This document shows, piece after piece, positions 1,572 through 23,490 of a stretch of DNA of 23,490 nucleotides. The notes under the pieces are model-generated. The model was given only the letters and a program-made list of their open reading frames with translations. It ran no database searches and had not been told where the DNA came from. Position 1 is the first letter of the stretch. Every line of letters begins with the position of its first letter. The translations under genes were made by a program, and so were the position numbers. This DNA comes from a virus: positions 1 through 23,490 of the IMG/VR virus record IMGVR_UViG_3300021368_000907. One strand, given 5' to 3'.

Positions 1572-3620
1572 ATGTCGGAAAAGGTCTACGTCGTCACCCT
1601 CTATAAACGTGAAGATCTAGAGGGTTTTTACACAGAGATGGCGGAGAATGGTTTCCGCCTCAGTAAAAAGCGTCCTATCAGTAGAAACACAAACTACTGG
1701 ATGACTGAAGAACAAGCAGAAGAACTGAAGCAAGACCCTAGAGTTTGGGAGGTTGAAGAACTTCGTGACATGCCAGTTCGCGTTAAGGCAAACAGAGAAC
1801 CTTGGGTGTCAGCAAAAACGTTTTGGAAAAATGCTCCTGTAGGCACTACTCTTGACTACTCATGGGGACAATGGGGACATGTTCATTGTGCTGGAGATGT
1901 AGCACAAAGAAGAAAAGGTAATTGGGGTGATGGATCTAGTCCTGCCACAGAATTAGCTGTTGATGTTGTTAATATATTTGATAATGGTAGACACGTTGAT
2001 GTAGTCATCGTTGATGATCCTGTGTCGTATGATAATGAAGAATGGGAAAGACCAACGGCACCAGGACAAACTAGATTTGTTCAATACCAATGGTTCAATG
2101 AGTTGAATACTCTCGTCAATACTATTGATGATGACGGAGAAACAGAACCAACAGGAACTATTACATATGGCACCAGTGCATCAACACCACAGTTTCATGG
2201 CAATCACGTTACAGGAACTGCATGTGGTAAATGGTATGGATGGGCAAATGAAGCAAACATTTATAATCTTGCAGTAACTGATCCATGGCCATCGGGACAG
2301 CAGGTAGGTGCATTACTGATCTATGATTATCTCAGAGCATTTCATCAAAGCAAACCAGTTAATAATGCAACAGGTAAGAAAAATCCTACAGTCAGCAACC
2401 ATAGTTATGGTGGTGTCAGAATTTTAAACGAAGCAGAGGGTGTCTTACAACTTGCGGATATTGGTTCTGTAGTTTACAGAGGTACTACATACTCATCTTC
2501 TAGTCCTGGACCATCTGGTTGGACAACATCAGGACTACAAACTGATTTTGGTATAAGATTTAATTTAGATAGGTATCCATCATATAGTGCTGCTGTCGCA
2601 GCAGATGTCCAAGATTGTATTGACGATGGTATTGTATTCATTGGTGCTGCTGGTAATGATAATCTTTTGATGGATGTTCCTGGTGGAACTGATTGGGACA
2701 ATAGAATTGTTATGAATAATGGTATTGGTTCAATCTACTACAACAGAGGAGCATGGCCATGCACTGCTGATACTGAATGTATTAATGTTGGTGCTTTGTC
2801 TGACCACTCTGAATTCAGAAGATCTACTTATACTATGTTTGGTCCTGGCGTAGATATCTTTGCTCCTGGAGATGGTATCTTATCTGTCTTTGGTAACACT
2901 GGACTTGCTGACAGTAAATATTCTGCTGGTAACTACTATCAGCAAATACAAGGGACGAGCATGGCATCACCACAGGTTGCTGGTATTGCAGCGTGCTTTG
3001 CAAATACAAAAGAAAGAGTATCAAACAAAGATATACGAGGATACTTACAGAAGACTTCGGTTGAAGGTGACATGACCTTTGATGTATCTGGTGGTACATT
3101 TAATGACAGCACTTGCCAAAAAGGAAGTCCTAATAAGTATCTACAAGCTATTAATCCCAGAGAAAATGTTGGGTTCCTTGCTGAAACTAAGAGTGAGAGA
3201 CCTACTATTGGATTGGGTTTTCCAAGACAAAGTGTTTTCATGACACCAGCACCTGCTGCTGTACCATCATCAAATACATACACATTTACTGTAGGAAATA
3301 GTGGAGCAAGTCATTATGTAGTTACTGGAACGGATGCTTCAACGACACATAGTAGTGCAAATGATCCAACAATTAATTGTAGTAGTGGTGACATTCTAGA
3401 GTTCACTGTAAGTGCAAGTGGTCACCCATTCTTGATTAAGACAGCTCCTACCACTGGAACTGGTGATCAAGTTCAAAGTTATCAGGGTAGTGGTAATGGT
3501 GTACTTGGAAATGGTAGAGCAGTAGGAACTGTTACTTTCTATACTTCAGGTTTAACAGGTACATACTATTACATTTGCGAGTATCATGGTAGTATGGTAG
3601 GATCTATCGTTATTTCATGA
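1572..3620 (+). CDS. Subtilisin-like (S8) serine protease fused to a C-terminal cupredoxin-like domain
   Basis: This is a 682-residue protein starting one base after the previous stop, with AGAGG just upstream. The S8 triad is visible. The Asp is D148 in VVIVDDPVS, the His is H209 in HGNHVTGT (compare HGTHVAGT), and the Ser is S463 in GTSMASPQVAG. The oxyanion Asn is N362 in GAAGND. Residues 1-80 may be a propeptide or docking part. From about 567 to 682 lies a separate beta domain ending in YYYICEYHGSMVGSIVI. With H618 in SGHPF, it shows the His...Cys-x2-His-x2-Met pattern of blue copper (cupredoxin) sites: C669, H672, M675. There is no signal peptide. Its place among fibre genes suggests a virion-associated protease that could process a fibre or attack host surface protein. 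The fold calls are firm; role and copper binding are inferred. Confidence 0.85.
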   Translation: MSEKVYVVTLYKREDLEGFYTEMAENGFRLSKKRPISRNTNYWMTEEQAEELKQDPRVWEVEELRDMPVRVKANREPWVSAKTFWKNAPVGTTLDYSWGQWGHVHCAGDVAQRRKGNWGDGSSPATELAVDVVNIFDNGRHVDVVIVDDPVSYDNEEWERPTAPGQTRFVQYQWFNELNTLVNTIDDDGETEPTGTITYGTSASTPQFHGNHVTGTACGKWYGWANEANIYNLAVTDPWPSGQQVGALLIYDYLRAFHQSKPVNNATGKKNPTVSNHSYGGVRILNEAEGVLQLADIGSVVYRGTTYSSSSPGPSGWTTSGLQTDFGIRFNLDRYPSYSAAVAADVQDCIDDGIVFIGAAGNDNLLMDVPGGTDWDNRIVMNNGIGSIYYNRGAWPCTADTECINVGALSDHSEFRRSTYTMFGPGVDIFAPGDGILSVFGNTGLADSKYSAGNYYQQIQGTSMASPQVAGIAACFANTKERVSNKDIRGYLQKTSVEGDMTFDVSGGTFNDSTCQKGSPNKYLQAINPRENVGFLAETKSERPTIGLGFPRQSVFMTPAPAAVPSSNTYTFTVGNSGASHYVVTGTDASTTHSSANDPTINCSSGDILEFTVSASGHPFLIKTAPTTGTGDQVQSYQGSGNGVLGNGRAVGTVTFYTSGLTGTYYYICEYHGSMVGSIVIS

Positions 3621-19970: not shown

Positions 19971-20020
19971 AATAGTAACTCCACCATTTCCCTGATGGTC
20001 TTACTTTTTTGTTCAAAACA

Positions 20021-21103
20021 ATGGCTCAATCTACTCTTCAAGGTCAATATACTGGATCCTCGTGGGATAATTTCTGCGAATGGGTCACCTCCACCAACAA
20101 CCGTCTGTATGTCGGTTGGTTCGGCGTCCTGATGATCCCCTGCCTCTTGGCAGCAACCATCTGTTTCGTCGTAGCATTCATCGCTGCTCCCCCTGTGGAC
20201 ATCGATGGTATTCGTGAACCAGTTGCTGGTTCGCTCATGTATGGTAACAACATCATCTCTGGTGCTGTTGTTCCTAGTTCCAATGCAATTGGACTTCACT
20301 TCTACCCAATTTGGGAAGCAGCTACTCTTGATGAGTGGTTGTATAACGGTGGTCCTTTCCAACTCGTAGTCTTCCACTTCCTCATCGGCATCTATGCTTA
20401 CATGGGACGTGAATGGGAACTCTCTTATCGTCTTGGTATGCGTCCTTGGATCTGCGTTGCATACTCTGCACCTGTTGCAGCAGCATCCGCAGTCTTCCTG
20501 GTCTATCCTTTCGGTCAAGGTTCTTTCTCTGACGCAATGCCTCTTGGCATCTCTGGTACTTTCAACTACATGCTTGTCTTCCAAGCAGAGCACAACATCC
20601 TGATGCACCCCTTCCACATGATGGGCGTCGCAGGTGTCTTCGGTGGTTCCTTGTTCAGTGCAATGCACGGTTCACTGGTTACCTCTTCTCTGGTTCGTGA
20701 AACAACTGAAACTGAATCCCAGAACTATGGTTACAAGTTCGGTCAAGAGGAAGAGACGTATAACATCGTCGCTGCTCATGGTTACTTCGGTCGCCTGATC
20801 TTCCAATACGCATCCTTCAACAACTCCCGTTCGCTGCACTTCTTCTTGGCAGCATGGCCTGTTGTTGGTATCTGGTTCACTGCACTGGGCGTAAGCACCA
20901 TGGCATTCAACCTCAACGGTTTCAACTTCAACCAGTCCATCGTTGAATCACAAGGTAAAGTGATCAACACTTGGGCAGATGTTCTGAACCGTGCTGGTCT
21001 TGGTATGGAAGTAATGCACGAGCGTAATGCTCACAACTTCCCCCTCGACCTCGCTGCAGCAGAGAGCACTCCTGTCGCTCTCACCGCTCCCGCAGTCGGT
21101 TGA
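20021..21103 (+). CDS. psbA: Photosystem II reaction centre protein D1
   Basis: D1 binds the manganese cluster, the chlorophylls of charge separation, and QB in thylakoid membranes. The gene is complete at 360 residues, starting ATG ([10 protein letters not shown]). An in-frame TTG four codons earlier is not needed. There is no intron. Numbering here is one above the usual. Tyr-Z is Y162; Mn ligands are D171, E190, H333, E334, H338, D343 and the A345 terminus; chlorophyll and iron ligands are H199, H216, H273. A cleavable tail of 15 residues follows A345. The residue equivalent to 130 is Glu (GREWEL), the high-light D1 form. Unusual are Ala for Cys at 125 (YAYMGR) and Ala for Gly at 171 (SFSDAMPLG). 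The gene looks more GC-rich than the structural genes, which fits a host-derived origin. A terminator follows. Confidence 0.98.
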
Positions 21104-21167: not shown

Positions 21168-21308
21168 ATGATAACTTCAGAGACACCTTACAAACTTGCC
21201 GAGATCATTCGTGATACTTGGCCACAACTGTACTACTTAAAGGATAGAAAAGATGGTCGCTTCAACTCTAAGTCCCCCCAAGAGGGGGTGGTTCGATGTT
21301 CTCGATGA
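21168..21308 (+). CDS. Possible small protein overlapping the psbD start (46 aa)
   Basis: The frame from ATG 21168 gives [20 protein letters not shown] followed by [13 protein letters not shown], a plausible amphipathic sequence. It then runs 56 bases into psbD in another frame before its TGA. Its ribosome site is poor. It fills the otherwise empty 150-base gap between psbA and psbD, and its first ~29 codons are not under psbD. That supports a real small gene coupled to psbD, but it could also be a chance frame. I do not recognise a family. Confidence 0.5.
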
Positions 21309-22308
21309 CTGGCTTAAACGAGACCGCTTTGTATTTGTGGGTTGGTCTGGATTACTACTTCTTCCCACTGCTTATTTGGCAATTGGTGGGTGGCTTACTG
21401 GCACGACGTTTGCTACGTCATGGTATACCCACGGGTTGGCGTCTTCTTATCTTGAGGGTGCTAATTTCCTCACGGCAGCTGTGTCAACTCCTGCTGATGC
21501 TATGGGTCATTCTCTTCTTCTACTTTGGGGTCCTGAGTCTCAGGGGGATTTCCAACGCTGGATCCAACTTGGGGGACTATGGAATTTTGTGGCGCTCCAC
21601 GGTGCCTTCGCCCTGATCGGGTTCATGCTCAGACAATTTGAGATAAGTAGACTAGTAGGTATTCGTCCGTACAATGCGATTGCTTTTTCAGGTCCTATTG
21701 CCGTATTCGTTAGTGTATTTCTCATCTACCCTCTCGGACAATCGAGTTGGTTCTTTGCGCCGTCCTTTGGCGTGTCGGCAATCTTCAGATTCTTACTTTT
21801 TCTACAAGGATTTCACAACTGGACACTCAACCCCTTCCACATGATGGGTGTTGCTGGTATTCTTGGCGGGGCATTGCTTTCTGCCATCCATGGTGTTACA
21901 GTAGAGAATACTTTGTATCAAGATGGTGATGGAGCAAATACATTCAAAGCGTTTGAACCTACACAGGAAGAAGAAACCTACTCAATGGTTACAGCGAACC
22001 GTTATTGGTCGCAGATTTTCGGGATCGCGTTTAGCAACAAAAGGTGGTTGCATTTCTTTATGTTGTTTGTGCCTGTTATGGGTCTCTGGACTTCATCCAT
22101 TGGCATTATTGGTCTTGCCCTCAATCTCCGTGCTTACGATTTTGTTTCTCAAGAACTGAGAGCAGCAGAAGACCCAGAGTTCGAGACGTTCTACACTAAG
22201 AACATTCTTTTGAATGAAGGACTTCGTGCTTGGTTGGCACCAGTCGATCAACCACATGAGAACTTCGTATTCCCAGAAGAGGTGTTGCCAAGAGGTAACG
22301 CTCTATGA
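21253..22308 (+). CDS. psbD: Photosystem II reaction centre protein D2
   Basis: D2 partners D1 in the photosystem II core, carrying QA and Tyr-D. The gene is complete at 351 residues, close to the usual 352. The ATG has AAAGGA about eight bases upstream. The N-terminus [20 protein letters not shown] has a phage-specific first ten residues, then the conserved [16 protein letters not shown]. Numbering is one below the usual. Tyr-D is Y159 (FLIYPLG), and chlorophyll and iron ligands are H196 (NPFHMMG), H213 (AIHG) and H267 (WLHFF). The C-terminus [10 protein letters not shown] is standard. No key residue is missing. Carrying both psbA and psbD is common in broad-range T4-like cyanophages. Its last bases belong to a repeat block shared with the region after the HNH gene. 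Confidence 0.98.
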
Positions 22309-22314
22309 TATACT
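22285..22314 (+). promoter_or_regulatory. Promoter-like element in the psbD 3' end (TTGCCA-18-TATACT, extended -10)
   Basis: TTGCCA at 22285-22290 and TATACT at 22309-22314 lie 18 bases apart. TGA, the psbD stop, stands directly before TATACT and makes an extended -10 (TGN). Initiation near 22321 would fall inside the terminator hairpin, so the resulting message would escape termination and start about 20 bases before the HNH ATG. The -10 is identical to that of the hli promoter. Confidence 0.5.
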
Positions 22315-22339
22315 GAGGGTCTAACGACCCTCTTTTTTT
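22315..22339 (+). terminator. Intrinsic terminator after psbD
   Basis: GAGGGTC at 22315-22321 pairs with GACCCTC at 22326-22332 around TAAC, followed by seven T. The T-run ends one base before the HNH start codon. Confidence 0.9.
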
Positions 22340-23335
22340 ATGGACACTAAAACTTGTAAGAAGTGTGGTATTGAAAAACCAGTCTCTGATTTTGGTAAGA
22401 GTGGTAAACAACTTCTAGCGAGTGGAGAATGGAAACAGTATTATCACACTACATGTAAGCAGTGTGTAAATACACCACGAGTTCGTAAGGACAATGTAGA
22501 CCCAAAAGTTTGTAATAAGTGTGGTGTTTCAAAACCTTTATCTGAGTATGCTTTTGAAGCACATCGTGATAGGTATCGTGGTGAGTGTAAGCAATGCAAA
22601 TATGAGCAACGAATAAAAAGTCGTGCAGAAAATCCAGAGATTGTTGTGAGGGAGAGGGAACGTAATCGTTGGCGCTATAATAATGTAGAGGGTGTTGCTG
22701 AGCGAGCTCGTGAAGTTTGTAACAAGTCTCGCGCAAAACATAAGGATCGTAGGAATGCAGAACAACGTGAGCGTTATGCAAATGATCCAGAGTATGCAGA
22801 AAAGCAACGTCAAAAGCAAAGAGATCTCTGGGCAAATAATCCAGAGCATCGTGAGAAGTCAAAGAAACAGAATAAAATTTATAGAGAAGAAAATAAAGAA
22901 GAACTTCGTATCAAACAACAAAAATACATTGAGGAAAATAAGGACAAGATTAGAGAGAGGCAAAGAAAGTATTACTATGACAATCCTGAGCATATGAAAA
23001 AACTCAGGAAAGCACAGTATGAAAAACATCAAGAGAACCGTGTCAAAGATCAAAGAAAAATTAGAGACGAACGTAGACAATATCTAAGAGAATATCTTGG
23101 TGGTAAGTGTGTTAGGTGTGGTGCAACTGAAAGACTTGAGTTTGATCACATCATTAAGGAAACTAAATCATTTACAATTGCATCTTCACTCACCTGCTTT
23201 AGTATTGAAGAGTTGATTGAGGAGGCAAACAAATGTCAGTTGTTATGTAGACCTTGCCACATCATCAAGTCAGATGAAGAAGGTGACTGGGCTAAGTTGA
23301 CACCAGAAGAGAAAGCAAAACGAAAAAGACGGTGA
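22340..23335 (+). CDS. Zinc-finger/HNH endonuclease, homing-type
   Basis: This 331-residue protein has two N-terminal paired zinc-finger units (C6-x2-C9 with C39-x2-C42; C58-x2-C61 with C83-x2-C86). A long, highly charged helical middle follows at about 95-250, with repeats like YANDPEY, WANNPEH, YYDNPEH. The C-terminal HNH nuclease has C257-x2-C260, D269-H270 (LEFDHII), N297 and C303-x2-C306-H307. The fingers would select the DNA site and the HNH domain would cut it, as in free-standing phage homing endonucleases. The tail is basic (KAKRKRR). The ATG directly touches the psbD terminator T-run and has no normal ribosome site. Direct repeats of the psbD end flank the gene, marking it as an insertion between psbD and its original downstream gene. 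The family call is firm; homing into psbD is inferred. Confidence 0.85.
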   Translation: MDTKTCKKCGIEKPVSDFGKSGKQLLASGEWKQYYHTTCKQCVNTPRVRKDNVDPKVCNKCGVSKPLSEYAFEAHRDRYRGECKQCKYEQRIKSRAENPEIVVRERERNRWRYNNVEGVAERAREVCNKSRAKHKDRRNAEQRERYANDPEYAEKQRQKQRDLWANNPEHREKSKKQNKIYREENKEELRIKQQKYIEENKDKIRERQRKYYYDNPEHMKKLRKAQYEKHQENRVKDQRKIRDERRQYLREYLGGKCVRCGATERLEFDHIIKETKSFTIASSLTCFSIEELIEEANKCQLLCRPCHIIKSDEEGDWAKLTPEEKAKRKRR

Positions 23336-23366
23336 GAAAGTATTGCCAAGAGGTAACGCTCTGTGA
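23334..23366 (+). pseudogene. psbD: Remnant of a psbD 3' end after the HNH gene
   Basis: In one frame this reads [10 protein letters not shown] and stop, against [10 protein letters not shown] at the true psbD end (22276-22308). Codons differ at synonymous places (GTA for GTG, CTG for CTA), so it looks like the end of a different psbD allele and not a fresh copy. Its first two bases overlap the HNH stop. Confidence 0.75.
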
Positions 23367-23372
23367 TATACT
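23343..23372 (+). promoter_or_regulatory. Second copy of the promoter-like element
   Basis: TTGCCA at 23343-23348, 18 bases, then TATACT at 23367-23372 with TGA directly before it. Both hexamers, the spacing and the extended -10 are unchanged between the repeat copies. Confidence 0.45.
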
Positions 23373-23396
23373 GAGGGTTATATGACCCTCTTTTTT
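23373..23396 (+). terminator. Intrinsic terminator, second copy
   Basis: GAGGGT at 23373-23378 pairs with ACCCTC at 23385-23390, extended by a T-G pair, around an ATAT loop. Six T follow. It differs from the left copy mainly in the loop, so pairing is kept. Confidence 0.85.
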
Positions 23397-23490
23397 ATGG
23401 AAGAAAAGCGAAACGCAATACAGTTCCCTGAGTTTGAACTACCCTTCAATAGTTTTATTGGAGGGTGGTTTATCCCCACTGATGTTTGTG
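23397..23490 (+). CDS. Start of a gene cut by the window end, possibly a 2OG-Fe(II) oxygenase
   Basis: The frame begins MEEKRNAIQFPEFELPFNSF and continues with IGGWFIPTDVC to the window end; only 31 codons are visible. The ATG abuts the T-run of the terminator copy, exactly as for the HNH gene, and there is no ordinary ribosome site. The IGGWFIP..VC stretch loosely recalls the N-termini of cyanophage 2-oxoglutarate/iron oxygenases, but too little is present to be sure. It was probably the direct downstream neighbour of psbD before the HNH insertion. Confidence 0.5.
   Translation, partial: MEEKRNAIQFPEFELPFNSFIGGWFIPTDVC

Follow-up and report, generated by a model that had tools for sequence, protein, structure and literature searches.

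We consider it probable, with moderate confidence, that the psbD 3' end of a T4-like cyanophage was invaded by a free-standing homing-type HNH endonuclease gene and that the resident psbD tail was retained as a promoter. The DNA analysed here (the window), a viral record 23,490 bases long, comes from a marine T4-like cyanophage whose closest isolates are Synechococcus phages including ACG-2014h, S-H9-1 and Sf-CH1b. In this window, psbA and psbD are followed by a gene for a 331-aa HNH protein (HNH331), and a 57-nt block containing the psbD end stands on either side of that gene (Table 1). This reading would carry a mechanism of fungal mitochondria, the replacement of a target's 3' end by an endonuclease gene, over to phages and to an ecologically important photosynthesis gene, for which several independent cases and natural empty sites are available for comparison.

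Organization of the psbD-HNH locus

The block comprises the last eight codons of psbD with the stop, a -10 box (TATACT), a stem-loop and a T-run. Directly after each copy there is an ATG; the left one opens the HNH gene and the right one the gene of a 2OG-Fe(II) oxygenase. The repeat of about 57 bases described in the earlier note is confirmed at 51 of 57 identical positions, compared with at most 32/57 for composition-matched random flanks; at the twin locus in contig L002, blastn of one flank against the other gave E = 1e-18. The right copy is joined to no psbD and starts inside the HNH stop codon (TGAG followed by AAAGTATTG). Its codons GAG AAA GTA TTG CCA AGA GGT AAC GCT CTG TGA encode a ten-residue D2 end and a stop. 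Since other psbD genes read CCTGAGGAAGTATTG at the corresponding place (e.g. L041), the HNH stop codon itself may be derived from psbD.

Relative to the left copy, the right copy carries a Glu-to-Lys change at codon -9, GTG/GTA and CTA/CTG exchanges and four further changes, all of which fall within the hairpin loop region and leave the hairpin intact. Codons -9 to -1 of the two tails thus differ by two synonymous and one non-synonymous change, and the earlier view of the tail differences as synonymous is correct for the GTG/GTA and CTA/CTG pairs but not for codon -9. Because psbD tails are too short for a tree, identity counts were used instead. The exact tail pattern had no match in 84,980 bacterial and archaeal species genomes, and a host origin of the block is excluded at this exact-pattern level.

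Table 1. Features at the psbD-HNH locus of the window
Feature	Position	Strand	Evidence
psbD (D2), functional copy	21253..22308	+	351-aa ORF; phage psbD matches; ends in a ten-residue tail and stop
Left block copy: psbD tail, -10, stem-loop, T-run	22282..22338	+	Direct repeat, 51/57 identical to right copy
Promoter-like pair inside psbD: -35 TTGCCA (codons -7/-6), 18-nt spacer, extended -10 TGA-TATACT over the stop codon	22285..22314	+	Promoter scan; codon -7 constraint
Stem-loop and T-run resembling an intrinsic terminator, immediately 5' of the HNH ATG	22315..22339	+	-12.7 kcal/mol, z -4.9
HNH endonuclease gene, 331 aa	22340..23335	+	ORF; PHROG HNH families; motif alignment
HNH catalytic region: C257-x2-C260, F268-D269-H270, C303-x2-C306-H307	23108..23260	+	Invariant in 10 aligned members
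Orphan psbD tail, ten residues and stop	23334..23366	+	Overlaps HNH stop codon
Right block copy	23340..23396	+	Direct repeat, 51/57 identical to left copy
Second promoter-like pair TTGCCA-18-TATACT, intact; probable promoter of next gene	23343..23372	+	Promoter scan; tail retention
Second stem-loop and T-run	23373..23396	+	-10.5 kcal/mol, z -3.1
Next gene, start only (MEEKRN...), 2OG-Fe(II) oxygenase	23397..23490	+	PHROG 61; complete in L002

Uninterrupted psbD ends in related phages

The right block matched 58 places in 58 isolate records, one in each, and wherever the annotation is informative the place is a psbD end, which agrees with the interpretation of this block as a psbD remnant. In two S-T4 records, the matched place is annotated 'hypothetical protein' and the match is only partial. 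S-PM2 and Syn9 both carry the block. These HNH-less genomes carry a single block, as expected if the HNH gene was inserted after psbD, and a second block was not seen in any HNH-less relative among the 58 isolate records. The junction comparison proposed in the earlier note gave the same picture: in S-WAM2 (L015), L080 and L106, one block joins psbD directly to the orthologous oxygenase gene, whose product is 61-62% identical in amino acids to that of the window.

Across 85 contig stretches, two exact block copies occurred, among the matches listed, only in L002, which repeats the entire arrangement of the window. The two sequences differ by one base over ~2.8 kb around the HNH gene, from ~20,720 to the window end, and identity drops to 70-95% in the 5' part of psbA. 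Either this tract was exchanged recently by recombination, or one of the two contigs is a chimeric assembly. At the window itself, the tract shared with L002 is the only possible sign of co-conversion. Within positions 20000-20750 of the window, the change in identity to L002 is a sharp break inside psbA, from ~100% to 70%.

HNH331 and its relatives

In HNH331, two Cys-rich modules at the N-terminus are followed by a long helical arm and a C-terminal HNH domain. It matches PHROG HNH families with E-values of 3e-25 to 1e-18, and its Pfam HNH match is sub-threshold. The CxxC, FDHI and CxxCH motifs are invariant in 10 members, with an ambiguous middle N of the HNH motif, which is D in most relatives. 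The AlphaFold model (pLDDT 78, pTM 0.31) is of low confidence and was left out of the evidence, and a search by sequence found no related solved structure.

Relatives of HNH331 at 49-90% identity each lie directly 3' of another phage gene. The genes in front of the family number at least eight and include regA (RegA-type repressor), gp23 (major head protein), purM, uvsY, a clamp-loader gene, a PHROG 2615 gene, psbA (L309) and psbD. By this distribution over several sites in divergent genomes, HNH331 is classed as a member of a mobile family. Only the window and L002 have psbD as the preceding gene. No host-gene tail duplicates were found at HNH331 relatives away from psbD, and among ~80 HNH loci only those behind psbD have a tail repeat, which rules out the repeat as a general trait of HNH loci.

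At L309 377-1483, an HNH331 relative (66%) is found directly behind psbA, and the psbD end of the same contig is uninterrupted. At L303 705-2767, a family member follows a gene of PHROG 2615, the family adjoining psbD in S-RIM8.

A putative promoter in the last codons of psbD

The earlier note described the block as psbD tail plus terminator; the stem-loop and T-run are indeed present, but a promoter-like -35/-10 pair had been missed. Judged from the sequence, the block is a promoter-like pair joined to a stem-loop, so that a terminator is only part of it. Both copies contain TTGCCA-18-TATACT with a TG ahead of the -10, and the two rank highest among the promoter-like sites of the 2.5-kb stretch that was scanned. 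The total of such sites in the scan is not above chance, and codon use was therefore tested on 178 psbD ends, collapsed at 95% identity. Leucine -7 is encoded by TTG in 69 of the 72 psbD ends whose stop is immediately followed by TATAnT, compared with 22 of the 106 that lack it (p = 1e-25, a value that is indicative only because of remaining relatedness). Elsewhere, TTG makes up 10-12% of Leu codons in both groups. Codon -8 varies freely in the same ends (entropy of 1.74 bits vs 0.25 at codon -7), so shared ancestry of the tail is no explanation for this bias. The contigs with the -10 were collected mainly by a pattern of which codon -7 is not a part.

These counts indicate that the last codons of psbD double as a putative promoter that constrains codon choice, an overlap that one synonymous change could test. 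Such a promoter would explain how many different genes start directly behind psbD. A comparable -35 constraint was not supported at psbA ends (2/7 vs 6/83, p = 0.12).

The fate of psbD tails behind inserts points in the same direction. Nine inserts, not all of them independent, lie in residents with the -10 described above, and the orphan tail is kept in eight. In the ninth (L223 350-420) the tail is lost, and the last HNH codons supply TTGAAA 17 nt from the resident TATACT. By comparison, six of nine inserts in residents without that -10 have lost the tail. The orphan tail is thus probably kept as the promoter of the next gene, and in the window the -35/-10 pair of the right block is the probable promoter of the oxygenase gene.

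Orphan psbD tails behind other inserts

A census of more than 200 psbD ends revealed further orphan tails in L030/L095, L200/L217/L218/L222, L215, L220, L224, L225, L232, L100 and L169. In all cases, the junction between insert and orphan tail falls at psbD codons -10 to -7. A second HNH family of ~160 aa (PHROG 3322) is unrelated to HNH331; in its top ~20 relatives, the gene lies behind psbD. In L200/L217 and L215, the C-terminus of the second-family HNH is fused in frame to the orphan ten-residue psbD end; likewise, a 48-aa ORF is fused in frame to the orphan tail in L030/L095.

The psbD in front of the second-family HNH has a recoded end; in L030, GAAGAGGTTCTTCCGAGAGGTAATGCACTATAA precedes the insert and GAGGAAGTATTGCCAAGAGGCAACGCTCTGTGA follows it. 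This recoded end together with the HNH gene precedes different resident tails and downstream genes in L217, L221, L224, L225 and L232. In six such phages, the psbD bodies are 77-88% identical, the last 48 nt 95% and the following 25 nt 98.7%. When HNH-less groups of matched psbD bodies were drawn at random, only 2 of 14,225 reached a tail identity this high. Because the psbD tail is far more conserved than the gene body, homing with co-conversion is indicated for this family by the sequence comparison, and the recoded 3' end plus HNH gene is read as the footprint of a moving unit.

The recoded tail GTTTTRCCTCGYGGAAATGC also occurs without HNH, joined to ordinary resident ends, in L398, L405, L407, L409, L411, L413, L415, L416, L417 and L423, which excludes it as a strict HNH marker. 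These tails are possible relics of HNH loss or resistant alleles, and they may also reflect plain allelic variation.

Not every insert is a nuclease gene. The L100 insert is a PHROG 2615 gene, a psbD neighbour in S-RIM8, and its empty site is represented by L083, where the insert is absent, the next gene is the same and the right block of L100 stands on psbD. A related situation was observed at psbA in L095 2256-4362 (and on the minus strand of L030), where an orphan psbA tail (EATPVALTASSIG-stop) comes two genes after an Endo VII gene that lies behind psbA. This Endo VII is 39% identical to F-CphI of phage S-PM2, and relatives of the F-CphI-like protein are nearly all located behind psbA. At L169 1-226, the orphan psbD tail lies behind another gene at the contig edge, in a phage whose psbD end is of a different type (no TATACT).

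Origin of the duplicated psbD end

In the invasion model, a break would occur in the last codons of the resident psbD, near codon -10, and be repaired from a donor carrying a psbD end plus HNH. The left side would be joined by homology, bringing in the donor psbD end, and the right side would attach, without long homology, to the resident tail near codon -10 through microhomology or end joining. Such a one-sided non-homologous join is needed because co-conversion by itself exchanges flanking DNA and makes no second copy. The earlier proposal of homing with co-conversion is retained as the likely driver, but it does not by itself account for the duplicate. Survival of the remnant would be explained by a probable promoter of the following gene within the repeat: its -35 and -10 would overlap codons -7/-6 and the stop, with the stem-loop after them. 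The orphan tail would also supply psbD homology on the right side and allow later homing into any psbD, whatever gene follows, and the flanking psbD homology would permit scarless loss of the element. The HNH-less recoded tails joined to ordinary ends fit such scarless losses.

As to polarity, the resident end is probably represented by the right-hand copy, and the functional copy on the left would be the one that came in. The right remnant shares 26 of 27 nt with HNH-less phages that have the same next gene, compared with 24 of 27 for the left copy, and three relatives show the same direction; in the window this is a weak pointer, because the tails differ by only two synonymous changes over the last nine codons. 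For the same reason, the assignment of the two tails to different psbD alleles, as first proposed, finds too little difference in the window alone, but distinct alleles are evident in the sister cases.

Gene stacking by unequal recombination is the main rival to invasion, and we regard it as rather unlikely. Under this scheme, psbD promoter-terminator cassettes are shuffled as in PeSL-type exchange without an endonuclease cut: a parent with psbD-block-HNH recombines with a psbD-block-oxygenase parent, and an illegitimate joint 3' of the HNH gene places the two genes in tandem. Many different genes do begin right behind the psbD block, and L100 shows exactly such a layout, its two psbD neighbours each being known on their own, one in S-RIM8 and the other in L083. 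Since L100 has the same architecture with a non-nuclease gene, the layout as such does not require homing. The left terminator moreover resembles one upstream of HNH in L004, and terminator homology could have brought the HNH gene in. Against stacking, most orphan-tailed inserts contain a nuclease (at psbD from either of two HNH families, at psbA from an Endo VII family), the second-family unit has spread through diverged psbD backgrounds, and the junction recurs within the same four codons.

Local duplication of a single resident psbD end at insertion, followed by drift of the right copy, would be in line with just 6 of 57 differing positions and with a non-synonymous Glu-to-Lys change, as expected of an unconstrained copy. 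Yet at its two synonymous differences the right copy agrees with HNH-less phages in which the same gene follows, the four changes in the hairpin loop region preserve the hairpin, and the left and right tails are plainly different alleles in the sister cases; we hold such a duplication to be improbable. Least credible is an assembly artefact joining the psbD ends of two co-occurring phages. Both psbD and psbA are conserved and prone to chimeric assembly, and the sharp psbA identity break relative to L002 is of the kind expected, but the whole junction is present in L002 as a second contig, and many contigs show the same architecture with other inserts.

Extending the invasion reading to all inserts is more tentative. 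The psbD 3' end might be a shared invasion site at which unrelated nucleases each bring their own psbD end, leaving the resident end as an orphan that serves as promoter of the next gene and as second homology arm. The result would be a self-contained cassette able to home into any psbD and to exit without a scar.

Comparison with known systems

No precedent at a psbD end or elsewhere in phages was found in the open-licence papers searched. The closest systems are the mORF gene hybrids of fungal mitochondria, known for atp6, atp9, cox2 and nad3 of Glomus sp. and atp6 of Allomyces macrogynus (PMC3630166). As in the phages, an endonuclease ORF stands right after the target gene, the element brings a synonymously divergent C-terminal end, and the native end survives downstream of the ORF (PMC3630166). 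Duplication of the gene end beyond the endonuclease ORF is found in the window, L002 and the sister cases, and a native end closer to uninvaded relatives is clear in L100 vs L083. The mitochondrial enzymes are LAGLIDADG or GIY-YIG proteins in contrast to HNH in the phages, and the phage tail is much shorter (8-10 codons). The native end is not transcribed with the gene in two of four Glomus hybrids (PMC3630166), whereas the phage orphan end probably holds the promoter of the next gene.

Among phages, the nearest cases are the free-standing homing endonucleases of T4 (PMC2988022) and F-CphI of S-PM2 (PMC6083498). The seg and mob genes of T4 similarly lie between conserved genes, are sporadic and co-convert their flanks, but the parts of the review consulted describe no duplicated target-gene tail (PMC2988022). 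F-CphI is likewise a cyanophage nuclease gene adjoining a photosystem II gene; it differs in its Endo VII catalytic family and in targeting intronless psbA (PMC6083498), and no gene-end duplication is described for it in the consulted portion of that source (PMC6083498). The parallel with S-PM2 drawn in the earlier note is thus thematic only: F-CphI and HNH331 share no full-length similarity, and kinship is ruled out, with only short weak segments at E = 0.03 or worse.

The block also has a sigma-70-like promoter joined to a stem-loop with T-run, by sequence evidence a PeSL-type trait. PeSL promoter-stem-loop cassettes of T4-type phages were reportedly described by Arbiol in 2010 and Comeau in 2014. 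Both arrangements share a composite promoter plus stem-loop at module borders and varying downstream genes (PMC4503421). The psbD block differs in having its -35 inside the upstream coding end, so that moving the cassette moves the psbD tail.

Elsewhere in the window, at 1572-3620, a 682-aa ORF resembles a subtilisin-type protease (GTSMASPQVAG) and has a plastocyanin-like C-terminal part.
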